Source of the DNA: Lactarius indigo
Lineage: Eukaryota; Basidiomycota; Agaricomycetes; Russulales; Russulaceae
Length of the DNA stretch: 64,000 nucleotides
NCBI GenBank assembly: GCA_025766275.1
Contig: JAFKAC010000143.1
Location: 1 to 64,000, forward strand
Direction: 5' to 3'
Both the position numbers and the translations under genes were made by a program. The notes under the pieces were generated by a model, which saw only the letters and a program-made list of their open reading frames with translations, was not told where the DNA came from and did not search any database. The stretch's first letter is position 1, and each line of letters begins with the position of its first letter. This document shows positions 33,466-64,000 of this stretch, one piece after another.

Positions 33466-33469
33466 AAAA

Positions 33470-34160: not shown

Positions 34161-34165
34161 ATACA

Positions 34166-37415: not shown

Positions 37416-37419
37416 TGAG

Positions 37420-37670: not shown

Positions 37671-37673
37671 GTC

Positions 37674-39736: not shown

Positions 39737-39999
39737 AGTTGTTGAAGGGTATGGAAGTCGAATGTATTCAGGAAATCAAACTGATCATGATTGAGCATAT
39801 ATATAGTGCTCTCATAAGTCCCCAAGAGGATGACCCAGAGATATCACCTTGATACAGGGTAGGTGGATTGAACGATCAGAAAATGAGGACTCCGAAATCC
39901 GTGTGTTGACATGACACACGTAACATGATAGGTTTCAACACAAAGTGTATTGGAGTGATATACTTAGAAAGACCAGTGACATACTCACAGTGTATTGTT

Positions 40000-40490: not shown

Positions 40491-40613
40491 TGGTATGTAA
40501 ATATCATCTGATTGAATATGGTCACATCATATGCTGCAATCACCCCAACAGAAGTGACCAAAACCTGAGGAGGAACAGTAGATTCACAAGGTAGACTACA
40601 GCTATGAACTTTA

Positions 40614-42717: not shown

Positions 42718-42769
42718 CGATACATTCGTAAAACCCCATGTGCAAATGACCCTAATACATCGGTGAAAC

Positions 42770-45560
42770 CCATGTGGGCCTACATAGTAAAGGCAGACGT
42801 AAATCACGAATGGGCCTATTAAATAGAGCTGCCGAATTGTTCGGATGGGGCCAGTGACATCAGCTGGAGATACCTTACCATGATAAAGAGATGGGCCCAC
42901 TACACAGAAAACACTTCACAGGTGCTGCTGATAGTCTCAAATGGGCCCAATGTTATTCCTAAGTGATACTACCGAATTCCTTGAATAGGCCCAGTGCTGC
43001 CCCTGAGACACACCGCCGACAGTCTCAAATGGGCCCGGTACTATTCCCCTGCAATGCTACCGAATGCCTTGAACGGGCCCATAATGGCTCCTTGGACATG
43101 CTGCCGATAGGATCAAATGGGCCCAGAATTGATCCTTGGTGAAATTGATAATTGTATCGAATGGGCCCAGTGCCAATCATAAGATATGCTGCCGATGGTC
43201 TCAAATGGGCCTGATATTATCCTAAGTGACACTACCGATTTCCTTGAATGGGCCCAGCGTTGCTCTTAATAAATGCTGCCGATGGTCTCAAATGGGCCCG
43301 GTGTTTTCCTAAGTGATGCTACCGATTTCCTTGACTGGGCCCAGTGCCAATCATAAGATATGCTGCCGATGGTCTCAAATGGGCCCAGTGTTTTCCTGAG
43401 TGACACTACCGATTGCTTTGAATAGGCCCGGCGTTCCTCTCGATAAATGCTGCCGATGGCCTCAAATGGGCCTAGCATTGATACTTGGCGAAATTGCCGA
43501 TTGCATTGAATGGGCCCAGTGTCAATCATAAGATATGGTACCGATGGTATCAAATGGGCCCAGTGTTTTCCTGAGCGACACTACCGATTGCTTTGAATAG
43601 GCCCAGCGTTGGTCTCAATAAATGCTGTCGATGGCCTCAAATGGGCCCAGAATTGATCCTTGGTGAAATTGACGATTGCATTGAATGGGCCCAGTGTCAA
43701 TCATAAGATATGCTGCCGATGGTCTCAAATGGGCCCAGTGTTTTCCTGAGCGACACTACCGATTGCTTTGAAGAGGCCCAGCGTTGGTCTCAATAAATGC
43801 TGTCGATGGCCTCAAATGGGCCCAGAATTGATCCTTGGTGATATTGACGATTGTATTGAATGGGCCCAGTGTCAATCATAAGATATGCTGCCGATGGTCT
43901 CAAATGGGCCCGGTAATTTCCTAAGTGACACTACCGATTGCTTTGAATAGGCCCAGCATTGCTCTTAATAAATGCTGCCGATGGCCTCAAATGGGCCCAG
44001 AATTGATCCTTGGTGATATTGACGATTGCACTGAATGGGCCCAGTGTCAATCATAAGATATGCTGCCGATGGTCTCAAATGGGCCCAGTGTTTTCCTGAG
44101 CGACACTACCGATTGCTTTGAATAGGCCCAGCATTGGTCTCAATAAATGCTGTCGATGGCCTCAAATGGGCCCAGAATTGATCCTTGGTGAAATTGACGA
44201 TTGTATTGAATGGGCCCAGTGTCAATCATAAGATATGCTGCCGATGGTCTCAAATGGGCCCGGTAATTTCCTAAGTGACACTACCGATTGCTTTGAATAG
44301 GCCCAGCATTGCTCTTAATAAATGCTGCCGATGGCCTCAAATGGGCCCAGAATTGATCCTTGGTGAAATTGACGATTGCACTGAATGGGCCCAGTGTCAA
44401 TCATAAGATATGCTGCCGATGGTCTCAAATGGGCCCAGTGTTTTCCTGAGCGACACTACCGATTGCTTTGAATAGGCCCAGCGTTGGTCTCAATAAATGC
44501 TGTCGATGGCCTCAAATGGGCCCAGAATTGATCCTTAGTGAAATTGGCGATCGTATTGAATGGGCCCAGTGTCAGTCATAAGATATGCTGCCGATGGTCT
44601 CAAATGGGCCCGGTAATTTCCTAAGTGACACTACCGATTGCTTTGAATAGGCCCAGCATTGCTCTTAATAAATGCTGCCGATGGCCTCAAATGGGCCCAG
44701 AATTGATCCTTGGTGAAATTGACGATTGCATTGAATGGGCCCAGTGTCAATCATAAGATATGCTGCCGATGGTCTCAAATGGGCCCAGTGTTTTCCTGAG
44801 CGACACTACCGATTGCTTTGAAGAGGCCCAGTGTTCCTCTCAATAAATGCTGCCGATGGCCTCAAATGGGCCCAGAATTGATCCTTGGTGATATTGACGA
44901 TTTTATTGAATGGGCCCAGTGTCAATCATAAGATATGCTGCTGATGGTCTCAAATGGGCCTGGTAATTTCCTAAGTGACACTACCGATTCCCTTGAATGG
45001 GCCCAGCGTTGCTCTTAATAAATGCTGCCGATGGTCTCAAATGGGCCCAGCATTGATCCTTGGTGAAATTGCTGATTGTATTGAATAGACCCGGTGTCAA
45101 TCACAAGACATGCTGCCGATGGTCTCAAATGGGCCCAGTGTTGTTCGTCAGTAATACTACCGATTACCTTGAATGGCCGAGTGTTGCAAATGATTCGTGC
45201 TGCCGATGGTACCCCATCGACCCAGTGTCATTCCTGAGTGTCACTACCGATTGCCTTGAATGGGCTCAAAATTGCTAGCGAGATATACTGTCAACAGGCT
45301 TAGATGGGCCCAGCATTGCTTGTGAGACATGCTGCCGATGGGCTCAAATGGGCCCAGCATTGCCCCTTGATGACATCCCTGATCAACTCAATGTTGCTCA
45401 TGACAAGTTATGAGGGAAAGCACCGATGGTCTTGAATGGACCCCATGTTGTTTACGAGGGATGCTACCGACAGGCCTAGCATCACTGACAAACCATATTA
45501 GGCCCATTTGAGACCATCGGCAGCATTTCTTAAGAGCAACTCTGGGCCAATTCAATCTAA
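42770..45560. repeat. Higher-order satellite: about 44-bp monomers in a 175-bp unit
   Basis: Monomers of about 43-45 bp each contain a (C/T)CGAT element and a GGGCCC core, as in CCGATGGTCTCAAATGGGCC, then CAG. Between about 43.4 and 45.0 kb, four monomer types alternate to make a 175-bp higher-order unit. The diagnostic phrase TTTTCCTGAGCGACACTACC recurs near 43566, 43741, 44090, 44441 and 44790, alternating with AATTTCCTAAGTGACACTAC near 43914, 44264, 44613 and 44963. One monomer type carries GCTGCCGAT, the element B motif. Edges are diverged and unordered. No coding signal. Confidence 0.9.
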
Positions 45561-45980
45561 TCGGTAGTATATCACTTCGGAACAAGACTGCTGACTATGT
45601 TGGCTGGGCCCAGGCATGTTCCTGTGATGCGCAGCCAACAACCTTCAATAGGCCCAGCCACCCATGGTCAGTCCTGAAATGTGTTGCTGATAGCTTTGAA
45701 TGGGCTAAGAATCCTTTTAAGGGCCACCATAGATTGCCTTTAATGGCCTGAGCCCTTCCCTCCAGAGTGCTGCCGATGGTCCTGAATGGGCCCAGAATTC
45801 TATGGGAAGCACTGGCATATTTGCCTTGACATGTACCGCCTGAATGATCCCAGTGATACTCATTGTTGTCCATCGGCAGCCTATCATTCCCTGCGTTCTT
45901 GGCCGGCAAGCTATTCTGAGCGCACTCATATGTTTTCCGATCAGAAGCTTTAACATTTGGACTATATAACACTCGATATA

Positions 45981-47332
45981 CTACACGAGGTTCTGCACCT
46001 CAGTATTGTCCAACTCCTCGATTATTTCATCTATTACCTCACTCATTTCTTTCTCCTGCTGATAGATATTCCATACCTGGGCATGGATTCGACGATTCCT
46101 TGACCCTTCAGCACGTAAGATGGCGGCCCTGGTGCTGAGATCAAACTCTTCTTGCTGTTGTAAAGCAGAATAGATGGTCAGTGTTGCAAAAATCGGTAGC
46201 GGAATATCCAGCGTACCAGTACCTGCTTGGGAGGATGCTGTACTTGCACATGAAGCACCTCCACACTTTCATCACCATGACCTACCGGCACCTGTGAGTT
46301 GGAGGGAGATAGGTCATTCCCACCGAAAGTTCTGACTGTATACGGTGAGCAAGGTATGCTTCATAATCAGTCAAACTGGTACTCACTGTGTGCTACCGAA
46401 TGGATTCCAACGCGCTCTCCAGCCTCGGTAGGCAGGGCCAAGTCTGCCCTAATGTCTTCATTCAGCATCCCATCCTGTCGCAATGGTGCATGGGTTGTCC
46501 CCTGAGCACGGGCCCCAGGCGAGACTGGCGAGTCCATCCCAAAGTCGTCTTGAGCCATTGGCGAGGGTGGCCCATCCATACCAAAACTGTCCAGATCTTC
46601 GACCTCATGGTCTGTATATGCAGAGTAAGACATATTTTATAATCAGTCAAAATGGTACTCACTGTGTGCTGCCGACGAGATTCCTACACTCTCTCCAACC
46701 TCGGCAGGTAGGGCCAAGTCCATCTGGTACTCACCACACGCTGCCGAAGGGTTTCCTACACACTCTCTAACCTCGGCAGGTAGGGCCAAGTCCATCCCAA
46801 AGTCGTCTTGAGCTGTTGGTGAGGGTGGCCCATCCATACCAAAACTGCCCCCATCTCCCACCTCCTGAGGAGCCTCTGAGTTGGTGACGTCATGACCTTT
46901 TGGCATCTCAGAGGCACTGGAAGGTGGGGCATGCTTGCCCCATTCCCAAACTGTACATGCAGAGTTAGGGGTGAATGGAAATCAGTGAAAACGACACTTA
47001 CCACGTGCTGCCTTGAGGCTGCCGATGGACCGAGTTGGCAGAGTAGGTGGAGGCGAATCCATCCCAAAGTCAGCTGGAACTGTAGGGGATGGAGATCCAC
47101 CCATTCCAAAGTCGTCCTGAGCTACTGGGGATGGAGACCTGCCCATTCCAAAGTCATCCTGAGCTACCGGAGATGGCGATCCATCCATCCCAAAGCTGTG
47201 TTTACTTTCTGGGGATGACTCCCCACCCATGCCATAATCGTCTTGACCTTCGGCAGATAGAAGCGAATCTTCAATGATCCTGAGCTGTTGAGTGCTGACC
47301 AATATCGAAAGGGGAGAGCGAGATTGAGACAT
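45981..47332 (-). CDS. Element B coiled-coil cargo protein with FGMD repeats
   Basis: The start is MSQSRSPLSILVSTQQLRII at 47332. Exon 1 carries an internal repeat: five near-identical copies of SPSPVAQDDFGMG-type blocks. Further exons repeat GMDGPPSPMAQDDFGMD and LALPAEVGE units, with intron-exon segments near 46370-46640 and 46640-46900 clearly duplicated. The last exon encodes a helix (EEFDLSTRAAILRAEGS, VWNIYQQEKEMSEVIDEIIE, ELDNTEVQNLV) and stops at 45981. It has the disordered-body plus C-terminal-helix plan of the genes at 40614 and 60743 and faces a divergent HPLL-type gene. No enzyme motif. Exon borders in the repeated middle are uncertain. Confidence 0.6.
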
Positions 47333-47573
47333 GAAAGTAGAATTTTCTGAGTGGAAATGGTCTGCGTGGAGTGGTCTGATGATGTAGCGATAAGTCGAAT
47401 GAGTCGGCAATATCTCGATTACTTATTATGCAAAGAAGAATCCATGTTCTGCTGAGTCAGGTTGTGAATGGATATTTCGGCAGCTCGGCAGCGGCACCAC
47501 CCGTCACTAGCACAACCTCAACCGACGTGGCAATTGACACCGCTGAACACATTCTTTTTTTTACTTCAACACC
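47333..47573. promoter_or_regulatory. Divergent promoter with TCGGCAG cluster
   Basis: A 241-bp spacer between divergent element B genes contains adjacent motif copies TTTCGGCAGCTCGGCAGCGG (47475-47495) plus a partial copy (GTCGGCAAT) at about 47403. Confidence 0.5.
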
Positions 47574-49655
47574 ATGACATCTCTTCTTTCCGTCGCATCA
47601 GTGATCGAAGCTGCCGTTGCTGCTTATGTCTCAGTCCGAGACATAACTGACAGGGCAGAATGGAAATGCCACCTTGAGAAGGAGAAGGTAAGTCCTTGTT
47701 TAGGTTTCCATTTGATCTCATCCCCATTTGAGTTAGGCCAAGGCAACAAAAGTTTTTCGGCAGGTCAAGAAGGACAATTCGGGGGAGGCGCCAGCACTGC
47801 ATCCCACACTAGCGGCGCTCTACATCGTATTAGACGCTGATGGTGATCTTTCAGAGATCACCAGGACAAACCCCAGCCTTAAGAGGCATAAGTATTACCA
47901 ACCTGGGGCCAAGTTCCCCCAGGACATCTCGGACTTGTTGCCGAGCGAGGGTCGCTGGTGGGAAACCCTTGGTGAGTCATTACAAACTGTCTCATTTGTT
48001 TTCTCAATGTCTCCCCACAGTTGCCAAGTCTCGAAATGTGGGACCACCACCAAAGACGGTCCCACATCACCTGCCGAGGGTGAAGCTCATCCTGCCGGAT
48101 CCACCTGCCGACTATGCGGCAATGCAGGTGGATGGGTCGCAGAAGGTGAGTAATTATATCTCTATTCCGCTGATCATTCTGACTTCCTCCAACAGTTGCT
48201 AAGGGCCACCCGCAACCGAAGGCAGCGCGAAAAGGCTGCCGAAGCTGCTGCCGTGGCCGATTCAAGGAAGCGTAAGCGGCCTTCGCCTTCAGGCGACAAG
48301 GCCAAGAAGCGCCATGCGGGGCCCTCGCGGCAGCAACGTATGCCCGCGCTCAATGACAAGGACGAGTTTGAGAGTGAGGAAGACGACAGCAAGAGCGACA
48401 GCTCCAGTGACAATGGCTATGAAGAAGAGGATGAGATCGAGGAGGAAGACGAGATCGAGGAGGACGATGAGGAGGACGAGGAGGACGAGATCGACAACGA
48501 CGACAACGACGAAGACGACGACGGCAAGGGTGAAGAGGGTGAGGGAGAAAACGAGGATGAGGGGTATAAGTTCGAGGTGCGTATTCGTTATCTTTTCATT
48601 ATTCGCAGCTAAAGGAAATGTAAATAGTGCTCTCGATGCGCCCGTGCAGGGGTCGACTGCCAGACAAGGCCGACAGGGCCTTGCATTCGCTGCAAGGAGA
48701 AGAAGCAGCAATGCAGTCTGATGCCCATCAACGCGAAGACAGGCAAGGCAGATCGGCGGACGCTGACGGCCAAGCAGGTCTTCAAGTTCCGCCTCGAGCA
48801 GCTCAAGGGGAAGCAGCCGAGGCGCGGGGTCAGGGTGGGTTCAAACTCGGTAGCGTTGGCCTCGAGGATGGTTGGGAGGATGAAGCTGGACAGCGGGTCA
48901 TCTCATGGCCATTCTCGCTCGGCAGCTTCAGTTTCACCATCTGCAGCTGAGTCACCTGTCCCACCCTCTGCGGAGCTGTTCCCTGCTGTTGACGCAGCTG
49001 CCGAGCCCTCTGTCCCTACTCCCGCTTCCATTCCCATTATCTCTGCCACCGCCGCCCCTTCCACTGTTGCCGCCGTTCCTCCTACCACTGCCGCCGCCAT
49101 TCCCCCTGCCGCCACCACTCCCATTCCCCCTACCCCTGCCGCCGACTCTCCTGTTCCCATCGACGACCACTCCCCTTCCATAGCCCCCGCTCTCCGTCGG
49201 CACGTGTCATCGAAGAGGAAGAAACTCGTGCCGTATGTCTTGGTGCCGAACCCACCACCCTCGGTCTCCTCCTCGCGAAAGCAAAGCTCTGCCGCCCAGG
49301 AGTCGCAAGCGCCATCTCCCAGCAGCGGCAGCATGGAGGCCTTGGAAAGAAGGGTAGCTGCAATTGAAGAATGGATACGTGCGCAAGATGAGAACTGGAA
49401 GGGGCGGATTGTAAGGCCTTTTTCATTTTCGGCATCTTTTTTGTCCTGTTCACTATTTCTCTCTGCCTCGGTATCTCTTTACATACTTGTCTCAAATCTA
49501 GCTAGTTCACTGCCCTACTGTACCATTTCTGTATCAAATTCAATCTCCATTTGCTGTCTTGTTTCGCCCTGCGTGATTGTGAGTTGGTCGTAATGTTTCA
49601 GCAGCTGTTCAGAGCTGGTCAAATAACTCACAAGCGGTCTGATTTTATCGCTTAG
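47574..49655 (+). CDS. Element B acidic protein with cysteine cluster (HPLL-type)
   Basis: Exon 1 (47574-47687, 114 nt, the same length as exon 1 of the 61919 gene) starts MTSLLSVASVIEAAVAAYVS. Exon 2 (47737-47971) holds the shared block ending APALHPTLAALYIVLDADGD, then RWWETL. Exons 48021-48145 and 48196-48576 follow; the latter is strongly acidic (runs of Glu/Asp near 48420-48560). The next exon carries a cysteine cluster, VDCQTRPTGPCIRCKEKKQQ then C, spaced C-x7-C-x2-C-x6-C, like basidiomycete zinc-cluster regulators. Basic residues, a long Pro/Ala/Ser region and a helix MEALERRVAAIEEWIRAQDE follow. A last exon may run to the stop at 49653-49655. The phase at the exon starting near 48650 is one base off. 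I infer a nuclear DNA-binding protein; its targets are unknown. Confidence 0.62.
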
Positions 49656-49659
49656 AGTC

Positions 49660-50175
49660 GGCGGAGGATTCCTCAGCGTTTGAGAATGTCTACCTCCCCA
49701 AATATTTTCAGATCTCCGAAATCTTATTTACCAAGGCAGCAAAAATGTTGGCTTGAGCTGCCGCAACACTAGATCATTGTCAAGGCATTTAATGGCGCTG
49801 AAAATTTGCACAACACGTGTATAGATAGATATTTACGTTACACTCTGAGAGACGCTTGGTACGAGTGAGAATTCAGAAAAGGGATGTGAGGGAGATACTA
49901 ATCATCTGCAGCGGTGCATGCCCCTTGCTCCTCCTCCTTCTAGCGACCCACTCTGGTCCTGGCAGACATGCCGCTGCTCCTATTGGACACATTCACCTTC
50001 TAGAGTCAATGAGGAAGCTATCACTTACTGAATTTGCTTAGCCCGCTCAGTAGGCCGCGTTACGCGCGCTGAGCGCCGAGTGTCATTCTGTGCATTTGTC
50101 AAACGGCGATCAACTTTCTGGCGCTTGGAGGGGGGGGTATCGGCAGTTGCCTGAGTGAGAGGCCCTGAGTTTCAA
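49660..50175. other. Convergent intergenic spacer
   Basis: Between the 3' ends of the genes at 47574-49655 and 50180-52198. No supported gene, and no clear repeat beyond scattered element B motifs (GAGCTGCCGC near 49758, ATCGGCAGTT near 50139). Confidence 0.45.
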
Positions 50176-50179
50176 GGCG

Positions 50180-52198
50180 CTAGATTGAATTTAGGTCACT
50201 TACATGGTCATCAGGGGAGCGTTCCTGGGCAGGACCCGCCCTTGAGCTGCCGATGGGAGCTGGGTGCTGCATGATGATGCGAGGGCGAGGGCGAGGGCGA
50301 GTGCAGGTGCGGGTGTGAGGAGGTGGAGGAGGTGGTGGGGGGTTGGGAGGGTGTGGGGGCAGAATTCCCCCATCTTCTTGCATCGGCAGCTCCTCATGAG
50401 GCTGCTGGCCATTGGCGCTCTGGTGGGGGTGAGGCCAGAGTTACAGAAACATAAGGGAGCTCAGCTACTTACACTGCTTGGACTCCCAGCACCATCTTCT
50501 TGGCTTTGTCCATTAGACCCACCCCCGGTTGAATGCTCACCATCATAATGCCTGTTAGCCTTATCCACTTTCTTGAAGCGGAATGGGATCTCGCCGGCAG
50601 CTCGCCTCTGTATCCAGTGCTTGAGTAGGGAGTTGGCATCATCGAGACGAATGTGATGGTATTGTGTCAGAGTGACCCCCTCCGGCAGGTACTCAGCAGC
50701 GATAAAGTCGCCTTGGGCCGCATGTATTCTGGCCCATGGGACCCTTCCCTTGCACCCACCAGCAGCAATCCCTGAAAATCAGATAACTGGCTAGGTCGGC
50801 AACAGGGAACTGTAGTTCACTCACGGTACATCTCACTCATGAACTTGCCAATGACCACCTTCTTGTACATGAGGCCCTCGCGATCAATGTCTTCCCATTT
50901 CGGCAGCACAGGGTACCCATTTTCGTCCATCGGCAGCTTCACCTTAGGGGTTTTATCCTTCCTTTTTCTGTCCTCTTCACCGCTATCAGCGGGGTATTCC
51001 CCTACAAAGGTGTCATGTTAGTACATTTCTCTTGAAGTGAAATAAACGCCGACCAAAAGACTCGGCAGTCCATCTTGAGAACTCCTCAACCAGTGGGTCC
51101 TTTGACCAGCCTTTGTACCGGGCTTTGAAAGAAGTTCCGCCCAGCTCGTCATTGTTGTCATAGCTATTTGATAGGTTGTTAGATTGTAAGTAGATTGTAA
51201 GTAGATAGCTTTGTATACGCACAACATGATCGAGGGTCCGTCATCATCACAATACCCCCCCAAAATAGCAACGCGCACTCCATATTGGCGGTACATGGTC
51301 TCAGAAAAGTCCCGGATTGTATGAATACCGTGCTTCTCAAACATCCTTGGTGAGATTTAGTCAACTTCCATCTGGTAAAATGATCGGCATGTACATACCG
51401 CTGCTGCTGCCGAGGAGGTACACCTTGCTCTGCCCATTTCTTCGCCTCTGCTCGGTACTTCACCCGTGTGTCTTCATCCAACCTTTCGTCAATTAACTTC
51501 ACAGCCTTCCTGTAACAGCCAAGGTAGCTTCGTGATCCTGACGTTGACCCAGACATTTCAACAGCCATCTTGTCCAGTTCCTGCCGGTGATGGTCAATCA
51601 AAATGTCGTGATATGTCCATCGTTTGCGACGAAAGCTGAATCTTTTGCGCTCCTGTCGGCACTTGTTGTAAAGGTACCGGCGGACAAGCTGCAAAATATC
51701 AGGGCTGGACAATGTAGCCAAGAGTGCACATACTGTTTCTACGACCTTTCTATCAAATTCGGCGCCTTGTCGCCAGTGTCTCTCAATGCGGTCCACCGAA
51801 TCTTGGACGATTTTTAACCGACCATCTGCATCGGCAGCTCTGAACTCGGCAGTGTGCTTCTGCAACATGCTCGCTTGTTCATCTGTGATTTCAATGTCCT
51901 GCTTTGAGGGGCTGTGAAGTGACATCAACAGAGGGCGTTTGCATAAATACAATGGTTATACACACCTTTCTTCACTTGTGGCACCTCCCACCTCGTCCTC
52001 AAGATCGGCAGCGAGCCAATGTAACTCGCCAGATGCGATTGACCCGAAGTCAGAAGATGGATACGAGCCCTCAGACTCTAGACCTGAGTCATAGTCTTCG
52101 TCTGAAGTTTCATCATCTGACAGAGCCGCGTCCTTCTCCCCCTTACTGCGATCCACAGAGTTGGGCTTAGCACCTTTCTTGGTTGTTTTTCCAGGCAT
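50180..52198 (-). CDS. Element B cargo protein with HMG-like helical and IRLDD domains
   Basis: The start is MPGKTTKKGAKPNSVDRSKG at 52198, with an acidic segment (DDETSDEDYDSGLESEG). After the first intron come ITDEQASMLQKHTAEFRAAD, FRRKRWTYHDILIDHHRQEL, YRKAVKLIDERLDEDTRVKY, RAEAKKWAEQGVPPRQQQR, then IRDFSETMYRQYGVRVAILG and DNNDELGGTSFKARYKGWSK. The C-terminal block has VPWARIHAAQGDFIAAEYLP with HHIRLDDANSLLKHWIQRRA. The last exons are Pro/Arg rich and end SDLNSI at 50180. Block order and the IRLDD segment match the element A gene at 37674-39736. It is divergent from the TET/JBP gene with a 170-bp spacer, so co-expression is likely. I do not know a biochemical role; an HMG-like DNA-binding function is inference. 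Confidence 0.68.
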
Positions 52199-52368
52199 GG
52201 GGAAGATTCACGGGAGGGACAGACCGAAGGACTGAGAATCTGCGGCAGTTTAAGTGACGATATCACATGCTCGGCAGTGTGGGTTTGTTTATCAGCAGCT
52301 AAAAAAACTACGGAATTCGGGTGGATCGGCAGCTAGTCTTCTGTGCCAAGTTCCTTAACGGTTAGAAT
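52199..52368. promoter_or_regulatory. Divergent promoter of the TET/JBP gene and its neighbour
   Basis: A 170-bp spacer containing two exact TCGGCAG copies (about 52270 and 52325) and one near-match (GCGGCAG near 52242). It is the only DNA available for both promoters, so the motif is well placed for regulation or marking. Confidence 0.5.
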
Positions 52369-53673: not shown

Positions 53674-53679
53674 AGAATT

Positions 53680-54505
53680 CCAATGCTTTCCCCTATATAG
53701 ATTTCCTTCCCTCAGTGAGGTCAGACTTCTATGTCCCTAGCAATGAGCATAGGTGAAATGGGGCATAGCCATTGGAGCAGATCTATGGGGTCGGCAGCTC
53801 ATCTGTTGGCTCGATGTTTTGCAGATGCGAAGAAACGTTGTTTTTTTGCAGCAGCTCACCAAATGTCTCAAGCGTGTACATCTTCCCAAGAAAAGTGAAA
53901 TGGTGTAGTGGCCAAGAACCTGAGTTTGCCTATTCCCCCTCTTCAGAGCTGCCGAACAATTCAATATCCTTTCCATGTTAATGGGGCGTGTTCATACTGC
54001 TTTCATAGAGACTATACTATCAAGCTCTATGTATTAATCTAGCTGTGCGAGACAAATCTGTTGTTTTTTGTCTACAGTGACTGAGGATCTAGATTTGTGA
54101 ATGCAGAGTGCTCCCTCCTCTGAGCTGCCGAACAATCAAAATCCTCATGATGTTAATGGGGCGTGCTCATACTGCGTCCTCAGAGTCCATACTATCGAGC
54201 TTTATTTCTCAATCTAGCTGCACAAGATAAATGCTTTGTTTTTTTGTCAAGACAGACCCATCTTAGCGGTTATCTATCTTGGCACTGTTGATATCGTAAA
54301 TAGGGTCTGGTTGTAACATTGGCAAAACCAGGCCATCTAAGGACCCTAGATCGTGCTTCGGCAGCTACCGACTGATGCGCCCAGATGACAGACTCCAAAA
54401 TGATGGCTTGCTGCACTTTCAGGTGCCTTAATAACTGCCTTTTGCAGGACCCATTCGTGGATGTATAACAGGCCGTTGTCCCGCAATCCTTTTCCCTTAC
54501 AGCAA
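53680..54505. other. Spacer downstream of the TET/JBP gene
   Basis: No supported gene. It contains two direct repeats of about 145 bp (near 53938-54082 and 54114-54255), each with AGAGCTGCCGAACAAT and TGTTAATGGGGCGTG, then TCATACTGC. They may be 3' UTR or promoter duplications. Confidence 0.55.
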
Positions 54506-54508
54506 ACG

Positions 54509-55539
54509 ATGAAGAGAACAGCATACTATCAAAGGTGAGTAATATTATGGCACTGTTTCCCTGCTCTTAAATACGAGTGGCCAGATATCTTATTTGCTGA
54601 ATTCCTAGGAACAAAAAACCCCTCCAGACTTACCAGCGGGAATATGCTCGGCGGAAGCGAGCACCTGGGCACCGAAAGGTCAGCAAAGCAGAGCGTGCAC
54701 TATTGGAGGAAAGGTGTGCACAGAGGTGCATGCTAATGGCAGCGGAGGACCTGCCGAAGTGCTCAAAGGCTGCTCTTTCCCGGTGCGTCTGCTACCCCCT
54801 CCAGTCACTTGGTTCTCACATGGATATCAAGGGGCTACGAATGTTCTCTCATCTTACAATCCAAATCGGCAGATTCCCGAAGAACCCCAGACATGATAGA
54901 GGAGGAAGAAAGGGCCCGCAACTGCTTCGATGAGTTGAAATTCATACTTCAAACATTCTGCCTTTTCCCGTGGATAGAGCCATTCCAGAAGCATGTTGAA
55001 GACTTTATTCAAGAGCGGCTTTCGGAAGCAGCAAGTATTATAGCGGTACCAGGAATAGAAGAAGAAGACTCAATCCGCCTTCATGGATTACGACGCTTGG
55101 TAGCTGGCGCCATTCAAGAAGTGGAGCTGGTACAGCAACCTTGGTATGCCGCTACATGTGCTAGGGAGGACGGCGCTATTATATGGGATGGTCGAGGGTA
55201 CGTGATTAAAAACTTATCTGCTGTGTCCTTGCCTCGCACACCTTCTCAGAGTTAATTCGAGGAAGTTTCGGCAGCGTTATGGCTGGTGATACCAATTTCC
55301 CAGCACTTGTTCAAGCTACATGTGTATTTAGCTACATATGGTCTATCGTCCCATATCCATATAAAGTAAATAAAAAATGCGTTACATTCATGAAGTGGCC
55401 ATTGGCTATCGGTGAGGACATCAGGTGCATTGGAAGGAAAATGTCCAGAGAATGTCTCCAACAGACATTGGACTCGTTGAACATCCCAGAGTGGTTTGGG
55501 AGGCTGCCGATGCCGGTCCCTCAAATCCACCAACAGTAG
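54509..55539 (+). CDS. Element B hypothetical protein between TET/JBP and KDZ genes
   Basis: Four exons are supported by splice sites. MKRTAYYQR starts at 54509. Next comes a basic exon NKKPLQTYQREYARRKRAPG, HRKVSKAERALLEERCAQRC, then an acidic/helical exon RRTPDMIEEEERARNCFDEL, FCLFPWIEPFQKHVEDFIQE, LHGLRRLVAGAIQEVELVQQ, and a final exon ELIRGSFGSVMAGDTNFPAL, EDIRCIGRKMSRECLQQTLD, ending PMPVPQIHQQ at 55539. About 300 aa. No family recognised. The N-terminus is strongly basic with Arg/Lys pairs, so nucleic-acid binding is conceivable. All introns are short and in phase, supporting a real gene. The position inside the element suggests an accessory role, which is inference only. Confidence 0.55.
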
Positions 55540-55616
55540 AGTGGGCGGCTATAGGTCCAGATCTATCCGATCTGCAAATACAATGCCTGGCCTGCCAAAG
55601 CTGTAAATGAAATATC

Positions 55617-55665
55617 TAGACTGCCGAAGCTGCCGAAGCTACCGAAGCCACTGAAGCTGCCAGAA
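55617..55665. repeat. Short GAAGCTGCC microsatellite
   Basis: ACTGCCGAAGCTGCCGAAG followed by two diverged copies. This is a local expansion of the element B motif about 100 bp upstream of the KDZ gene. Confidence 0.6.
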
Positions 55666-55761
55666 CAATACTCGGACCGCCAACGTTTCCGGTAGGCTGA
55701 TAAGAGGCACTCCTCCAAGCATATACGCCACAACGCAAAACCCCACCTATCTAGGCTCCCC

Positions 55762-58700
55762 ATGGCACCCAAAGGTATAAAGGCATCCAAAGTCTTCCAG
55801 AGAAAGTCTAAGGCCAAGATAATCGACTGGGTGACTCGGGAGGGCTCTCGAGGAACTAGAAGCGTCCCAGTTGAAGTGATCACCTCAACAGATTTGCCGG
55901 TACCGAGGAGAGGTGCTGGTGGAAGAGAGATAGACAATCATGAGGCAACTTTGCATGAAACTGATCCTCCAGCTATGGATATCGACGACACATTCTGGAT
56001 AGAGGAGCCAGAACAGAAAAGAGTGAGTTCACTCACACGTCTGTCCTTGACAGTAATTGACATGTCTCAGTCCCAACGTACCTATATGGAGGAGTTTATT
56101 CCTAGGATTGGCCCTTACCTGCGCTGCCTCCTCGATTCTGAGGGCGTCCCTGCTATGACAACGTGTCAGAGCTGCATGTCTGCTCCATTTGAGTGGAGGT
56201 GCACTGAATGCTTTCCTACTCTGGTGCTCTGCAAGGAGTGTTGCCGAAAGTCCCACCAGCGGCTCCCTTTCCACAGGGTCCAGAGATGGACAGGAAAATA
56301 CTTTATTTCATCTTGGATGCGGGAGGTTGGGGTAAGCTTGCGTCTTGGACACTCTGGAGATTTATGCCCCAATCAATTGAATCAAAGCGTGCGTTGCGAA
56401 TCCTTTTATATTTTAAATCACATCCCAATCGATACAGTCACAGATGGACTGCGACGATGAAGACCGCCAGGTCGGCAGCCAAAATGAATATGACACAGCT
56501 GCCGACTTTGGCTTCGGCACAGCTGCCGACCTTGGTTTCAACAACTCAAAACCTGGTCGTCGTGACAAAGACGGAAACCCAATCATTACTGTTATTGATA
56601 GGTCTGGTGTTCATGATATTGGTGTCAGCTGGTGCTGCTGCCCTGAAGCTCCCGAGCACGACATGCAGTTGATGACGGCAGGGCTCTTTCCAGCTACATT
56701 TCGCAACCCAAGGACAGCATTTACCTTCCGGGTGCTAGAAGACTTCCATTTGGATAATCTTGAATGCAAGACAACTCCGAGCCAGTTTTTCAGTCGCCTA
56801 AGGAGACTCACAAATGATGAGTTTCCGAATACAGTGCCGGTAGGAGGATTTACAAGCCTATCTGCCGACGGTAAACTAAGTGGAATACTTAGGACCGATA
56901 TCGGGAGCTTCTGAGGGCCTGCCGACAGTGGAGAGTGCTCATTTCCCGAAAGCGATTTGGTTTTGGGTATGGAGGGGATGAAGAACAGAAGTCAGGATCG
57001 ATGGCTATATTTTGTGCTTTGTGTGCACAACCCGGGATCAACCTCCCTGAAGATTGGAGAGAGTATGAAAATAGGTGCGTTAATAGACATCAGTACCTGG
57101 CAGCTGCCGACATATATCACTTTAGCGACGTCCTTTTTATGCGAGGTTTCATGATGGATGGCAACTTCCAGGCAGAGCACATGAAGATGAGAAATCCAGA
57201 GAATGATATTCCACTTTCCGAAGGCACAGGGTTCATGGTCAGCCGAGAACCATACGAATCGCATCTGAAATCGGCAGTTGAGAGGCGGCAGGTCGGTACT
57301 ACATCTTGTATTTCGGCAGAGGAAAGCTCACACTCAAGCAGAGGTCGACATGCCATGATCACCGTGCAGTAAATAATGTAAACAAGCATAGCTCACACCT
57401 TGAATCAACTGGAATCGGCGCCACAGCCTGTATTCATGGGGCCTTTGTCCCTGATTCTGTTGTTGACTTTCAAAAGGGAGAAGCGTGAGTTTTCATATTT
57501 ATCAATATATGCTAGGTGAAAACCAACCTCCAAAAGCCAGAAGAACATGGACTACTCCATTTTCAAGGCCCTTAACTTTAATATGGAGGGAATAGAGGCC
57601 GCCCTCATCTGCTACGATGTTATGTGTCAATGGAGTGTTCATATGGCGGAGAGGGTTGTCGGCAGCAACTATCTTGAACTTCCCGATAACCTGGAGCTTA
57701 GGTTGGGCATCGGCCTTTTTCACATACACGGACACCAAGATACCTGCTTAGCTAGGTACTCACCCAGCTTTATCAAAGGTGGACGACAAATCGATGGCGA
57801 GACCATTGAAACACTTTGGGCTCCGCTCAATGAGATCACTAGAAGCACAAGGGGGATGTCAACATCACACCGTAGGGAGGTCATAGACGACCACATGAAC
57901 GACTCCAATTGGAAAAAACTTATCGACCTAGGCAAGTTCTTTCCTATGGATGCCACACCGGTGCTCACTCTGGTTGTGTAGTCAATGCCGTGTCTAGACG
58001 CTACCGAAAGGCACTTTCGGCAGCTATGCTGAGCACGGCAGCATTTGAGTCCATAAGTGCATCGGCAAGTCCAGAACGTATTAAGGCTTGGGGTGCCGAA
58101 GAGGAGCACGCACAAAGGGAGCGAGGTCGTGATGTAAAAGTGATGGACATCTATGACATCAAGATGAAACGATGTGGGTCTGGTTGCTCCGTGATTGTTT
58201 TTGCCTAACATGAGGATTCAGTCCCATCGCGTGCAGAAATACTTCTTGATTTGACAGAGAAGGAGATAGAGGGCTCTGGCCATAAGGGGCATGCTACGTG
58301 GCTCAGTAGCGGGTTGAAGATTCAGGAGACGCAGTATGATTTTCGGCAGCTTTCTGAGGGAGACTTCTGATCATGGTTTCACAAAAAATGTAGGTTATCC
58401 CTTCAAGCACTGGAAAGGAAGATTGGGTCCCATCCAACACCAGATCAACAAAGGGATATTGCCTTGAAGCATGCTCGGCTTCAAGAAAGAGTTGACACGT
58501 TCCAAAAGCAGGCGGCTAACATTCTCCGGGCTTCCCCTGACAGTGGAGGTGACTCCTGGGATAACACCCCTTTAAGAGAAAGATATATCGGCATCGAATT
58601 TGATGGCATTGGTGAAGGAGAAGACGATGACGAGTGTGCATCATCTGCCGAAGAACATGATCAATTGCAAGTATCAGGAAATAACTCCACTGACGGCAGT

Positions 58701-59531
58701 ATTGATGCAGAGTATATCCCATTGCATCTCCCCTCACATCTCGGATATGACTGGTGTGACAAAAATGGTGCCGAAGACCTGGCGAAGGCGGAACTTCACC
58801 TAAGGGAGGGCCAACTCAATGACTCTCTGCATCATATTCGCATTGCCCTGGGACACAAATCCTATCTGTTCAGACATGACGTTCGTCCAGCACGTACACA
58901 GAGACTCAAAACGCGTGCTTGGACAGAGGTGCATGCTGCCGAGTCAACTGTTCAACATCATGCTCGGGTGTATACTTGTGCACGGCAAGCAATAGTAGAC
59001 CTTGGCGCCGGCAGCTCTCTCCTTGACAGGTACAAAGTCTTGAGGCGCCAGGACTTGAGTGTCAAGACAAGCGTAATTGCACCCCATGTACGTGGACAAC
59101 GGAACAAATCATTGCCTTGGTTTTGGACAATGGATGTTCGGAGAGATGCCGACGTTGGGGAATGGATGGAAGATTGTACGGGCTACTCTGTTCATACATG
59201 CTTAAGAAATCTAACACTCCACACAGTCTACCGGGTCCATTGGCTTCGAGCAAAAGCTCAAAAAATGCGGTGGATTGAAGAGCTTCAGTGTCTCCAAGTC
59301 GAGATGGACTCTGCCATTAGGTTCTTCAGGCATCAAGAGAAATTTTGGCAAGCAAAGAAGGAGCTCATTGAGCCCCAGTCACAGCCGGGGCATGCTGTGT
59401 GGGCAGCAAGACAAAGCGCTATGTGGAGTTCAATGGCTGTCCAGGCGGGGTCCAAGTTTACTGCTTTGCTTAAGAGTGACCCACCTCCTGAGTTTGCCAA
59501 GGTCCTACTACAGCCAAAAACGAGTAGATAA
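55762..59531 (+). CDS. KDZ (Kyakuja-Dileera-Zisupton) transposase with CxC2-type cysteine cluster
   Basis: A RNase H-fold DNA transposase of the KDZ superfamily. The N-terminus MAPKGIKASKVFQRKSKAK is basic. A CxC2-like zinc cluster (CQSCMSAPFEWRCTECFPTL, LCKECCRKSHQRLPFHRVQR) precedes it, then VHDIGVSWCCCPEAPEHDMQ, FTFRVLEDFHLDNLECKTTP, DRYRELLRACRQWRVL and FCALCAQPGINLPEDWREYE. The core has MMDGNFQAEHMKM, GATACIHGAFVPDSVVDFQK, QKNMDYSIFKALNF, LICYDVMCQWSVHM, RLGIGLFHIHGHQDTC and DGETIETLWAPLNEITRSTR. The Asp of DGNF, the Asp of YDVMCQW and the Glu of ETLW are the likely acidic triad. The C-terminus is long and helical, to PPPEFAKVLLQPKTSR and stop. Exons include 55762-56022, 56068-56388, 56444-56839, 56893-57296 and 57537 to about 57931, continuing to 59531. 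Two junctions (near 57297 and 57932) were not resolved in phase. It looks largely intact, about 1,050 aa. Confidence 0.9.
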
Positions 59532-59534
59532 AAT

Positions 59535-60015
59535 TATTCAAATACATACAGTAATCTCAACTAGTCGTCGGTAGTCATTGGGGGCTAAAATATCGGCAGC
59601 ATCCAATGGCAAGTTGGGCTTGTTTCTATCTACTAAGGGAAGCCATGTGGACAGTGGAATCGCTGCCGATGACGTTGTATTGGCCAATAGCTGGCAGGGA
59701 ACTGGCAAACAACATCCTCACATGGGCCCACAGAACCCATCGTGTTGACCCAAAGTTGTTGGGAGAGCTGCCGAGTGTAGGCCGATGGGTTAAGCTGCCG
59801 AGCCAACACCTCATATGGGCCTATAGTCTCTGTCTATGGCCACCCATTGGCCTATAGAACCCATTGCGCTGGTCTAAAGTTGTCGGGAGAGCTGCCGAGC
59901 ATGGTCCCAGGATCACGTGTATGATTTGGTGGCGTAACCCTACCTTAGATTATTAGGACTCATAGGCAGCTTCCAAAGGCAATATCACACTCCATTCACG
60001 TCACACACTACATAC
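59535..60015. other. Spacer with dispersed TGGGCC/CTGCCGA repeats
   Basis: No gene. Between about 59650 and 59930, phrases such as TGGGCCCACAGAACCCATCG, GTTGGGAGAGCTGCCGAGTG and GTCGGGAGAGCTGCCGAGCA recur in two diverged copies. They combine the TGGGCC core of the satellite with the element B motif. Confidence 0.55.
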
Positions 60016-60016
60016 T

Positions 60017-60708
60017 ATGTCAGCTGAAACAGGCACCTCTATATTAGATGCTGTGCTCACCTGCATCGGCGAGAGAATATCCTCTATCTTGCTCAACTCT
60101 GCCGATAAAGATGAAAAGTATATCGCCAGCTTACACAATGAAGTGGCAAGCATTAATTTTCCATCCAAAACAAGTGGAACACATTCTGATTAGAATTTGG
60201 ATTTAGCTTGCTGCCGTATGGGTCACTGGCCTTTTATCGTCTAGCGGCAGCCCCCCTCATGTGCCAGAGGCAGTCAGGATTGCCTTTCACCATTTTTCGG
60301 ACATCAGGAACCCGGCATCCTATGCAGCACATGATGCAGACCAGAGGCTGAAATGCAAGATTGAGGCATTAGCCATTCCACGATTTAAACTTACGGAGTG
60401 GTGGAAAATTGGAGAAGGGGTGACGATGAAAGAACCATTTGATGTCCGCGATGAGTTAGTAGCAGAGTTGTTGCGTGCTCTAGAGATGGTATGCACCCTG
60501 CTTCATTTACAAGTCCTCAAAGTAACTGGAACTGCAGCAGGAAGCTGGCTCAAGTCTTCGCACTAGGGTAACAGAAAGGTTCAAACAAGCTCGGCAGCTG
60601 TCCAAGAATATCGAGAGCTGCCGCGATTCCATTTATCGCATGTTCGATGATACTTATCGCAGTTTTGAGGCAGAGGCTAACCGTTTGGAGAATGAAAACT
60701 CTGGTTGA
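60017..60708 (+). CDS. Element B small cargo protein, helical C-terminus
   Basis: Exon 1 starts MSAETGTSILDAVLTCIGER and runs to DKDEKYIASLHNE. An intron of about 70 nt (GTGGCA donor, TTAG acceptor) leads to LAAVWVTGLLSSSGSPPHVP, EAVRIAFHHFSDIRNPASYA, LTEWWKIGEGVTMKEPFDVR. A final exon gives VTERFKQARQLSKNIESCRD, MFDDTYRSFEAEANRLENEN, SG and stop at 60706-60708. The N-terminal block resembles the start of the HPLL-type genes in position and length, so it may be a diverged fourth copy. The C-terminal helix is coiled-coil-like. It is convergent with the next gene, 34 bp away. Donor choice at the last intron is uncertain by one base. Function unknown. Confidence 0.5.
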
Positions 60709-60742
60709 CGATTACTGTAGTTCTACACATCACAGAATACGA

Positions 60743-61255
60743 TTACAGCTGCCGATCCTCCCCAATGAAGGCGTCTGCCATAACCATCTCATTGTCCAAA
60801 TCACGCAGAAGTTCCTCCAATAGTTCGATCTTCTCTGATTGCTTATCTTTCAGGAGGTTAGCTCGATCTCTGGCAATTGAAAGCCATCGTGGAGAGACAC
60901 CCTTTGGAGGATCCTGGATTGTTTTAGCTGATGTCAATCAGATGACACTTGAGTTACCTTGTCAATGAGCTTTCCAATCACAGGTTGTAAGAGTGTCACA
61001 CTTTTCGGGACCTCGCTGAAACCTTCGGCATCTGCTGTTGGGCCGGAGGGTCCCACCATTCCTTGCTGGTGTTGACCCACATCAGACTCCATTCCATTGA
61101 GGAGTTTGACCCCATTCCAGAATGCAGATCGCATCTATAGGCATCGGCTCAGCGTTCTAGTAAAGCATTAGTTTTGATACACACACCGCCTCCTTGAAGC
61201 TGTTCTCCTCTGACTCATAGACACCTTGTTTCATCTCTGAGGACTTCCCCTGCAT
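60743..61255 (-). CDS. Element B coiled-coil cargo protein (short form)
   Basis: Start MQGKSSEMKQGVYESEENSF at 61255. Three exons join in frame through introns with GTGTGT/TTAG-type and GTAACT/CCAG signals. The body is MRSAFWNGVKLLNGMESDVG, VTLLQPVIGKLIDK and DPPKGVSPRWLSIARDRANL, then the helix KQSEKIELLEELLRDLDNEM, VMADAFIGEDRQL and stop. About 139 aa. The helix at the C-terminus and the divergent partner on the plus strand (61919) mirror the gene pairs at 41479/41882 and 47332/47574. It is shorter than the other two because it lacks the low-complexity body. Function unknown. Confidence 0.58.
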
Positions 61256-61918
61256 GGTTGATAGATTGTTGATCGGATATCAGTAGATGTCCCTCACAGT
61301 ATGACGTCATAAGCGCTTATGTACACATGCGGATCTATGAATCTGAAACAAGTTACATGGGGTGGCAACAATCTATATCCCCTTCTGATTAGTTGGAATG
61401 GGCCAAAAGCGAGAGAACTGCTGGGTTAGACATGAGAGCTGCCGGGTTAGACATGAGAGCTGCCGGGATAGACACATGAGCTGCCGAGCTGGATACAAGA
61501 GCTGCCGGGCTAGACACTGGCATAGGCCAGCCATATGTTTGTGTTTTGACTGCCGGCTGAACAAATTAAGCCCACGCAAGCAGCACGCATAACACCCAAT
61601 AATCTTCCCTGAAACATCTTCTGAAACGTGCCTGTGTGGGTCAATGGAATCTATGTGTGAGCTCCCAACAAACTTGCGGCAGCCCCAACAATATGCCGGC
61701 AAGTGAAGCGCTTGCCTGGCCCATATAGTACACCCACACACACTGCCGATGAAACTAGATTCCCCTAATAGGATGTTTCACAATATATCTATCTGCATAG
61801 TTGATAATTATGGATGGACATACCCAGGCCACGCTCCTACTGTTTCCTCCTATATATACTCCCGACACCTCTTGCCTTCGATCCATAAGACCATTGACAC
61901 CACCCTTCCTCTGTGACC
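61256..61918. promoter_or_regulatory. Divergent spacer with short GAGCTGCCGG tandem repeat
   Basis: A 660-bp spacer between divergent genes. At about 61415-61530, five copies of a 20-24 bp unit of the type AGACATGAGAGCTGCCGGGT occur, partly matching the element B motif. A TATATATACTCC sequence near 61851 lies about 65 bp upstream of the ATG at 61919 and is a plausible core promoter. Confidence 0.55.
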
Positions 61919-63583
61919 ATGTCAACTTCCAATCTCAGTCTAACCCAGGACGAACAAACTCTTCACCACTATGCAGCTATGCTCGAGAAGGAACTAGAAG
62001 CCTATCATGCATGCATACCTAGAGATGAAAAGGTGTGGAGGAAGAAATTCAGAACGCACTTGGTATTCTAGTCTTCCTACAATCCACTTCTATAAGCTGA
62101 GCTGAGGTCTATACAGAAGACTTCAGTGGACTATTATTTCGGTGCCAATAGAAGAGGCTCTGTACCTCCCCGCATTCACCCACTGTTGTTAAGCCTCATG
62201 GAAGTGATCAGAGAGGGTGGAACCTCTGTGAAAATAAGTTCAGTCTCAGTGAAGGATCCAAGGATTTTGATGAGCAACTATTATACTTCACCAACGGATC
62301 TCCCACCACTGAATATACATTTACCAGGCCAAAATGGTGTGGATCCTCTCTCTGACATTCATGTCTGTCGACTGACATCGGCAGCTTCTTGTCAAGAATG
62401 CATGGACAGTTTGGCATCAGTAGGTGGCATGATGATAAATATGCCATCGGCAGCTTCCAGTCCAGCTCCTATAGCACCTGGGCATCAAGAAAATCCAGCA
62501 GGTGGAAACATAATGACTACCTCAGTGGCAGCTTCTGGTCTAGAACCTATGGCATCTGAACCTCAAGAGCCCTCGGCAGAGATAGGCAATCCAAGAGCCC
62601 CTATTCCCAGGAGGAAGAAGGATTTGTATGCGTCTGGTAGTGGTGTTCGCAGTGAGTCCTGAATTTTGTCATGCAGATGTGTTGAGGAATAAAATTGCCA
62701 AAGAAATTGTTACCAGATCGGCAGCAAAAAGGAGTGCTGCCGATGACACTGGTGAAGCAGCTATCAGCACTACATACAAGACTAGGAGGCGTGCAGGAGT
62801 TAATAATCCGAGTGCAGCTAGGCCAAATATCAAGGGTAAGGGAGAACGGGATAAGAGGACAAGCTCAAGAAAGGGCAAGCCTCTACACCCAGAAGAGGAC
62901 CCTGACAACTGGGAGGATGAAGCTCAACCTCTCAATAAACCAATGGGGGGAACCAATGAGGAGGCGTCGCCAGGTGCATTAGGTCTAGCTTCCATTGGTT
63001 CTATGCTCATCACATTTACCGGCAGCTAAAGAAATTGTTACCAGATCGGCAGCAAAAAGGAGTGTTGCCGATGGTATTGGTGAAGCAGCTATCAGCACTA
63101 CATACAAGACTAGGAGGCATGCAGGAAATAATAATCCAAATGCAGCTAGGCCAAATATCAAAGGTAAGCGGAAACAGGATATGAAGACAAGCTCAAGGAA
63201 GGGCAAGCCTCTACACCCAGAAGAGGACCTTGACAACAACCGGGAGGTCGAAGCTCAACCTCTCAATAAACCAATGGAGGGAACCAATGAGGAGGCATCG
63301 CCAGGTGCATTGGGTCTAGTTTCCATTGGTTCTATGCTCACCACATCGATCGGCAGCTGAAGGCGAAGATAACAATAATATAGTTAAACAGCTCGAATGG
63401 GAGGTCCAGAGTCTAAAGGTCAGATGTGACTGGCAAGAGAAAACAATTAAGGATCTGAAATCCAGATGCGATAGCCATGAGAAGGTCCTTGAGTCACTTC
63501 GGCAGCAAATTGTGGGTCTCCATGAGAGAGGGAAGAGCCTGAATACTACATATTTTGGGGAGAACTATGATCTCATGCCATAG
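61919..63583 (+). CDS. Element B HPLL-type cargo protein with duplicated exon
   Basis: Five exons (61919-62032, 62117-62636, 62677-62973, 63026-63304, 63357-63583) join in frame to 478 aa. Exon 1 starts MSTSNLSLTQDEQTLHHYAA and is 114 nt, like exon 1 of the 47574 gene. Exon 2 opens KTSVDYYFGANRRGSVPPRI then HPLLLSLMEVI, the block shared with the genes at 41882 and 47574. Exons 3 and 4 are near-copies of each other (AKEIVTRSAAKRS, GEAAISTTYKTRR, ARPNIKGK, SRKGKPLHPEED). They are basic and flanked by introns of 52 nt that are also duplicated, in phase 1, so the duplication keeps the frame. Exon 5 encodes a coiled coil (IVKQLEWEVQSLKVRCDWQE, HEKVLESLRQQIVGLHERG) and ends NYDLMP. A DNA-binding or scaffold role is possible but not shown. 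Confidence 0.65.
62692..63356 (+). repeat. Tandem duplication of an exon plus its intron (about 331 bp each)
   Basis: Segments 62692-63024 and 63025-63356 are about 93% alike by eye. Each begins at the shared AAAGAAATTGTTACCAGATC and ends with the 52-nt intron whose acceptor is CGGCAG. The acceptor itself lies within the TCGGCAG-like motif. Confidence 0.85.
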
Positions 63584-63599
63584 CTACACTCCTCATACC

Positions 63600-64000
63600 A
63601 ATATAGGCTCATCAGCAGGATGAATGCATGGGTATTGCAGGTCAATACATGCTTGTCAGAAGAGTACAGATATGAACACTGTGAGCCAACTTCATTGGAA
63701 GAAGAAACTGCAGGCCAATACAAGCACATCGGCAGGACGCACACATCGGCAGAATGGGCCAGTACAAGCTCATCGGTAGGATACATACCTTGACACCATG
63801 GGCCAATACAAGCTATTCGGCAGAATACACACGCTTCTACCGTGGGTCAATACAAGCTCGTCGGCAGCATGTACACTTTGGCGCCATGGGCCAATATAAG
63901 CCATTCAGGAGAATAGACACACAAATTCCATGGGGCAATACAAGCTCATCAGCAGAATATGTATATAAGTACAGCAGGCCAATACAAGCTCATTGACAGA
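63600..64000. repeat. Right-hand tandem array, about 44-bp units with TCGGCAG, running off the window
   Basis: Imperfect units contain CATGGGCCAATACAAGCT followed by CATCGGCAG(AA/GA)TACAC. Copies are seen near 63603, 63643, 63714, 63760, 63798, 63844, 63889, 63933 and 63976. It combines TGGGCC with the element B motif, as in the left-hand satellite, and continues past 64000. Confidence 0.75.

Follow-up and report, generated by a model that had tools for sequence, protein, structure and literature searches.

Introduction

The word of the transposon protein VANC21, YAGTATTAY, is highly enriched in the copies of its own family, and a related family has different words, as stated in sections of two reports on VANC proteins (PMC5735166, PMC10398659). 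In CACTA transposons, motif and binding protein diverge between subfamilies, and the GC-rich part of the motif may be methylation-sensitive, according to passages on these motifs (PMC2613891). Here, a window of 64,000 nucleotides from the basidiomycete Lactarius indigo (contig JAFKAC010000143.1, positions 1 to 64,000; "the window" means this whole stretch) was analysed for the 7-mer CTGCCGA. The word saturated a KDZ transposon, element B, over its whole length. The body-wide saturation reaching into exons is the new part, since family-specific self-recognition was already known from VANC and TnpA.

Zn2Cys6 proteins typically target CGG triplets in inverted, direct or everted pairs, and dimeric members bind paired CCG...CGG sites, as summarised in part of a study of Pho7. 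The Pho7 site itself, TCG(G/C)(A/T)xxTTxAA, holds a single CGG in the promoters tested there (PMC5559640). TET-bearing transposons were surveyed in 2025. In the main text of that survey, "motif" is used 11 times, always for proteins or transposon ends; "satellite", "tandem repeat", "subterminal" and "zinc" are absent, and no dispersed word is mentioned (PMC12730594). A literature search, with Iyer et al. 2014 outside its scope, returned no account of dispersed family-specific words in KDZ elements.

Results

CTGCCGA saturates element B and stops at its borders

Exact copies of CTGCCGA numbered 100 in the window, with 75 at 45.5-64 kb, 21 at 42.75-45.5 kb and four at 0-42.75 kb. The initial annotation, made by eye, had given about 75 copies for the first of these regions and about two by chance. 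The exact count was the same, and the dinucleotide expectation was 2.1-2.2 in the 18.1-18.3 kb tested. The k-mer count that it proposed as a check placed CTGCCGA as the top 7-mer of 45.5-64 kb, and the runner-up CGGCAGC (70 copies) was the same motif shifted. After masking of tandem arrays with Tandem Repeats Finder, 69 copies were left in 18.3 kb of element B, against 2.1 expected. The best 6-mer of B reached a z of 31.3, and the maximum over 40 dinucleotide shuffles was 5.6.

On the contig of 117,802 bp, the word ran to 66.0 kb and then stopped, with none in 66-79 kb. Altogether, 131 copies lay within 42695-66169. The element had been annotated as ending at position 64000, which needs correction to 66168. 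For the 33 kb of host DNA at the left, a handful of copies had been noted. The low number held, but the DNA preceding 42.7 kb is only partly host, as a second KDZ element, C, occupies it from somewhere around 33 kb onwards.

The two end arrays of B were strictly inverted. All 21 copies of the left array were on the plus strand and all 39 of the right array (from 63600 on) on the minus strand. The 71 interior copies were divided into 33 plus and 38 minus, with a mean spacing of 257 bp. Their positions fitted random placement, 36 of 70 neighbours were co-oriented and no regular spacing was seen. Alignment on the motif gave the consensus AGCTGCCGA, its best-defined form. The flanks of the 71 copies were unrelated, with at most 0.16 bit per position beyond -2 to +6. 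Near-variants were raised in the interior, namely CTACCGA (11 against 1.0 expected), CTGCCGC (13 against 2.0) and CTGCCGG (12 against 2.0), as in a graded binding preference, which they may reflect. Products of CpG decay were not clearly raised there (CTGCCAA 2 against 3.9, CTGCTGA 7 against 4.7).

In the whole genome, AGCTGCCGA occurred 1739 times and its reversed control 589 times. On contig C1, which was listed in full, 23 of 56 copies lay within 13.5 kb at a B-type element.

Structure of element B and its host element

Element B is a 23.5-kb KDZ transposon at contig coordinates 42695-66168, inserted with a 7-bp target-site duplication, GCAAAGC. Imperfect inverted ends lie just inside the duplication copies, with CACATAATG on the left and ...GGGCTC on the right. 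Removing B and joining the flanks restored an open frame (...SSDIPAKRRQRKASTSAKAKGKGKES...) leading to a six-cysteine exon at 66.3 kb of the contig. B is therefore read as inserted within the six-cysteine gene of element C. The gene set of B comprises a KDZ transposase, a TET/JBP dioxygenase, a six-cysteine protein and the IRLDD protein. The transposase domain (PF18758) scored 108.9 bits against a cut-off of 26.6 (E 3.8e-31) and the TET/JBP domain (PF12851) 65.9 bits against 34.9 (E 3.4e-18). For the IRLDD protein, no Pfam match was listed at E up to 10. The features are:

33000-42687, plus: left part of element C, the host of B; 33000 is a working limit and the left end is not fixed
37012-37398, no strand: array of C in 38-bp units with palindromic pairs GTCCGAG-N7-CTCGGAC
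42688-42694, no strand: left copy of the target-site duplication GCAAAGC, repeated at 66169-66175
42695-64000, plus, continuing to 66168 of the contig: element B, KDZ transposon with TET/JBP, delimited by duplication, ends and in-frame flanks
42829-45338, plus: left terminal array of B, 87/175-bp units, 21 CTGCCGA, all plus
45400-63600, both strands: interior of B, 71 dispersed motif copies with the above consensus
48211-48600, plus: acidic exon directly 5' of the six-cysteine exon, an open frame with splice sites placed by eye and tentative limits
48628-49447, plus: six-cysteine exon CX2CX6CX7CX2CX6C with Zn2Cys6-like spacing, the proposed motif reader
50461-51955, minus: gene of the IRLDD protein, from open frames
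52645-53673, plus: TET/JBP dioxygenase gene, PF12851 on 53131-53673
55696-59531, plus: KDZ transposase gene, PF18758 on 57520-57981, cysteine-rich CxC2-like region at about 56.2 kb
63713-64000, minus: start of the right terminal array of B, 44/88-bp units, reaching about 65.93 kb of the contig

The nested B breaks a frame-continuous coding sequence, that of the presumed motif-reader gene of its rival C. Minus-strand frames at 46643-47422 encode a repeated FGMDGSPSPVAQDD-like peptide (42-bp repeat) and are perhaps a further gene of B. At 62586-63360, there were two similar versions of one stretch of B (KEIVTRSAAKRS...KPLHPEED...), which points to a local duplication close to the right array. 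A second array like the left end of B was present towards the contig end (C50, 114500-117802; L006), with 17 CTGCCGA, mostly plus. A 70-bp satellite array of 31.6 copies at 28911-31112 was without CTGCCGA.

The words of the nested elements do not mix

The word of element C was GTCCGA(G), and its KDZ exon was found at 72.2 kb of the contig. The left part of C held 34 copies of GTCCGA and one of CTGCCGA. CTGCCGA reached a density of 3.9 per kb in the interior of B, and the two parts of C had 0.10 and 0.00 per kb. CTCGGAC showed the reverse, with 0.16 per kb in the interior of B against 1.65 and 8.55 in the parts of C, arrays of C included. The words of the two nested elements do not mix. An inner array of C at 67.0-68.2 kb of contig C50 held 30 CTCGGAC in one orientation, with palindromic arrays on either side.

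Exons carry the word, and sites are retained between families

Codon shuffling covered 12 in-frame coding segments of B (6.7 kb), for which the gene models are tentative. These exons contained 17 CTGCCGA, against 2.8 under synonymous-codon shuffling with a maximum of 12 in 5000 shuffles. Fifteen of the 17 copies were in frames giving Ala/Ser/Thr-Ala-x. The excess over the shuffles, together with the tolerated frames, suggests a pressure at the nucleotide level that the protein accommodates. Codon bias, doubted as a source of the motif from the start, was ruled out by this comparison.

Family A showed 84.6% identity to B across a 3.4-kb KDZ region. It was the one other TET-bearing family looked at for dispersed copies and held 40 in 11.1 kb (3.6 per kb). 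The initial annotation had named the lack of a dispersed motif in other KDZ-TET elements as an argument against its proposal, and A does carry the motif. Six blocks of 74-84% identity were aligned between the two families. In these, 17 sites were common to both, seven were found only in A and nine only in B. Retention was thus 17/24 and 17/26, compared with 3588/13720 (26%) for other 7-mers and 260/1034 (25%) for CpG-bearing 7-mers of equal GC, with an approximate binomial P of 3e-6 to 3e-5. By this alignment, motif sites are kept above background, yet they also appear to be gained and lost between A and B.

Different KDZ families have different words

Nine KDZ elements or pieces were compared, A to H and X. 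H was a copy of the kind of G, 98.6% identical over 5.7 kb. Its interpretation as a truncated G copy was rejected, as a gypsy element lies between its six-cysteine and KDZ genes. A motif finder based on expectation-maximisation drifted to degenerate motifs in most sets, and fixed anchors were used instead. With tandem arrays masked, the top 6-mers (observed against expected) were CGGCAG in A (52 against 4.7) and B (94 against 7.6), and GTCCGA in C (31 against 5.0). D showed TCCGGA (13 against 1.7) and ACGGAA (14 against 2.2), and E showed TCCGGA (17 against 1.9). AAGCGG was the top word of G (14 against 2.0) and H (18 against 1.7). In F, CGAAAC (11 against 1.7) was followed by CCCCGC (11 against 2.1), both weak. 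The top 6-mer contained CCG or CGG in A to E and in G. In no set did the best z of the 40 shuffles exceed 6.9. Two control stretches yielded words that were mostly of low complexity. Their best CpG-bearing 6-mers had z of 5.1 and 4.8, the former slightly above its own shuffle maximum of 4.7. Piece X (C262, with a 537-residue frame) held seven CTGCCGA in 10 kb and was set aside.

KDZ elements and pieces were CpG-poor overall, with observed-to-expected ratios of 0.35-0.72. Ten NCGN tetramers were compared with expectation in each family. CCGA led in A (1.25), B (1.21) and C (0.97), ACGG in D (1.00), CCGG in E (1.11) and CCGC in G (1.08) and H (0.78). The remaining tetramers were mostly below 0.8. 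Remnants of CpG decay or a general effect of CpG context were disfavoured as sources of the words by the unraised decay forms and by the tetramers differing between families.

The gypsy insert of E served as a clean control, with one TCCGGA in the first 4.58 kb (gypsy frame 1-3522) against 20 in the rest. Judged from these counts, the word is family-specific and clear in A/B, C, D and E. In two KDZ copies, a Ty3/gypsy element separated the six-cysteine gene from the KDZ gene (L038, 1-3522, with a chromodomain; L041, 3-3433). The palindrome TTCCGTGTTAACGGAA of D occurred 23 times, of which 21 were within about 3 kb of seven D-type KDZ exons. D (L037) had TCCGGA in its interior in common with its relative E and TTCCGT...ACGGAA in its array, as if the word were changing.

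A six-cysteine protein adjoins most KDZ loci

The genome search covered 90.3 Mb in 291 contigs and gave at least 175 KDZ exon matches. The 133 listed matches to the catalytic exon were used as loci; 17 listed N-terminal-only matches and unlisted matches were excluded. From the six-cysteine search, 139 cluster matches were used after removal of duplicates and two weak rows, and the following counts are lower bounds. Of the 133 loci, 111 had a six-cysteine exon on the same strand at most 25 kb upstream, at a median distance of 6.3 kb. The controls gave four downstream and nine on the opposite strand. Among the nine elements examined, the exon was found in eight (A to H), and none was found in X.

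Zn2Cys6 clusters (PF00172) have the spacing range CX2CX6CX5-16CX2CX6-8C. The exon of B, with CX2CX6CX7CX2CX6C, satisfies this pattern, and C, F and G have one additional residue in the first CX6C. In an alignment of six families, all six cysteines and one proline were invariant. The cluster cores were 26-57% identical between families and are therefore fast-diverging. The exon of B also has a Ser/Pro-rich tail with a possible coiled coil, as judged by eye. Paired CCG...CGG sites make up the arrays in C (GTCCGAG-N7-CTCGGAC) and in D (TTCCGTGTTAACGGAA), and the sites of A and B are single. The six-cysteine exon at 111 of 133 loci, together with CCG or CGG in the clear motifs, makes the Zn-cluster protein the favoured reader.

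TET/JBP accompanies two families

Of the TET/JBP matches, 36 of 39 were beside A or B, two beside other KDZ exons and one beside none. None of the 39 was beside C, D or E. As these three families have motifs without an adjacent TET, TET/JBP cannot be the general reason for the motif. The enzyme seems to be an addition to the motif system, not what gave rise to it.

Discussion

The initial annotation regarded CTGCCGA as a binding site for an element-encoded protein, perhaps the KDZ transposase or the cysteine-cluster protein. A sequence-specific site at the nucleotide level is upheld by the copies that stop at the element borders and are retained above background, and of the two candidates the cysteine-cluster protein is now favoured. 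The motif is very probably a protein-binding site, as predicted from its distribution, and the predicted reader is probably the Zn-cluster protein. On balance, the word of each family would be the site for its own element-encoded DNA-binding protein, most likely the Zn-cluster protein, serving both the ends and the body. The comparison with VANDAL made at the outset was borne out in so far as different KDZ families have different words.

The proposed mechanism starts from a family-specific six-cysteine Zn-cluster protein that would bind the CCG/CGG word of its family, which in B is AGCTGCCGA. At the inverted end arrays, the protein could bring the two ends together or assist transposition, as with TnpA. 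Through the randomly spread body copies, it could cover the element and maintain open or demethylated chromatin, perhaps joined in A and B by the element's own TET/JBP. That the function in the body is anti-silencing or activation has about an even chance, by analogy. Site and protein would change together, and since they co-change, each family is proposed to recognise itself and little else. More tentatively, and rather short of an even chance, the elements may write a family self-tag into their whole sequence, exons included, by nucleotide selection, and their own Zn-cluster protein may read it. With the same reserve, the element (in two families its TET/JBP) might by this tag target its own copies over their full length and not those of rivals, even when nested.

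Several observations weigh against this explanation. Pfam Zn_clus scores were under the 21-bit cut-off in A (14.6), B (10.7), C (14.1) and D (8.7 bits), no Zn_clus match was listed for E, F, G and H, and sequence searches of the PDB returned no Zn2Cys6 chain. The leading word of F, CGAAAC, is without CGG, and no tetramer of F stands out among the ten. The gypsy insert of H is not word-free, with eight AAGCGG in the first 4.1 kb and ten after. As AAGCGG is frequent in this insert, the motif of F to H is doubtful, and the word signals of these three are weak or doubtful. The top word of X, TCGGCA (10 against 2.2), stayed within the shuffles (z 5.3, maximum 5.8). The P values for retention are approximate because blast alignment favours stretches with exact matches. 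Within families, variability was not lower at motif bases (A 0.46% against 0.25%, B 1.08% against 0.75%), a comparison that a faster-mutating motif CpG may affect. Motif similarity tracks transposase similarity equally well, so that co-variation does not single out the Zn protein.

For this last reason, the chief competitor as reader is the cysteine-rich CxC2 region of the KDZ transposase. The motif groups {A,B}, {C}, {D,E} and {F,G,H} agree just as well with the similarity of this region, and strictly inverted terminal arrays suit a transposase site. The site would then have extended from the ends into the body, for example to titrate the transposase or tie copies together. However, the body copies are random in strand and position and lie in exons, and transposition as such seems not to need them. 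CGG triplets are moreover the usual Zn2Cys6 target, and a gene with such cysteine spacing adjoins most KDZ loci. The transposase is therefore considered an unlikely reader. The motif had also been suggested as a mark for TET/JBP action. As an address for this enzyme, with its CpG as the oxidation target, it would explain why the TET-carrying A and B have by far the densest motif and why each copy holds one CpG. This suggestion is weakened by the motifs of C, D and E, which lack an adjacent TET match, and by the share of CpGs in the exact motif, which is only 9.4% in A and 10.2% in B. It is accordingly regarded as improbable.

As a further explanation, the words could be a mutational relic: methylation would have removed CpGs wherever no host protein or sequence context shields them, and CCG words would be what is left. 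The CpG-poor KDZ elements are as this predicts, but B copies are about 30-fold above expectation, which is more than preservation, decay products are not clearly raised and different tetramers are prominent in different families of one genome. Such a relic is very improbable. The word could also have spread as array units were copied by local duplication or gene conversion, the interior being functionless. This is plausible for the arrays, since the motif is present in their units, and formation of tandem repeats is the proposed route of spread for VANC motifs, as discussed in part of one report (PMC5735166). For the interior it is hardly credible, as the 71 copies share little flank beyond -2 to +6, 69 copies persist after array masking and exon copies are mostly in tolerable reading frames.

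The results bear on how a transposon-encoded factor may act specifically on a long element and on the reason for which TET/JBP enzymes of fungi accompany transposons. Within this single genome, five families use three to four words that differ clearly (A and B have one in common, those of D and E overlap). Each family has many copies, and nested elements and a gypsy insertion provide natural controls. If true, the keeping of sites in exons would show selection for element-wide marking in an unusually direct form.

Among described systems, TET-carrying Kyakuja elements, which are KDZ transposons of Agaricomycetes, resemble B in the KDZ transposase, TET/JBP and the 7-bp target duplication, as far as these are described in the survey's main text (PMC12730594). 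The Kyakuja ends given there are 5'-CA..TG-3' without terminal inverted repeats; the left end of B fits, but its right end GGGCTC and the imperfect inverted ends do not. Owing to this mismatch, the assignment to KDZ is safe and Kyakuja is not claimed. En/Spm and other CACTA elements are similar in that an element-encoded protein binds repeated motifs near both ends. In the passages on these motifs, they are subterminal, and body-wide or exon saturation is not described (PMC2613891). B is not a CACTA element, as it has a KDZ transposase and the ends CACATAATG and ...GGGCTC. The six-cysteine protein resembles Gal4-type Zn2Cys6 proteins in its cysteine spacing, basic residues near the cysteines, a possible coiled-coil tail (by eye) and the proposed CGG sites. 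Gal4 has its basic loop in the first half of the cluster. In contrast, C, D and E appear by eye to have it in the second half.

VANDAL is a plant Mutator relative. B has a KDZ and not a Mutator-like transposase and would thus work like VANDAL without being a member; a VANC gene was not searched for. The likeness consists of a family-specific short word, tandem repeats and a fast-diverging element-encoded factor, as these are set out in sections of the VANC reports (PMC5735166, PMC10398659). According to the same sections, VANC21 sites are mainly non-coding, have the same orientation and are often in tandem repeats. Unlike these, the interior sites of B are dispersed, occur on both strands with unrelated flanks and extend into exons.

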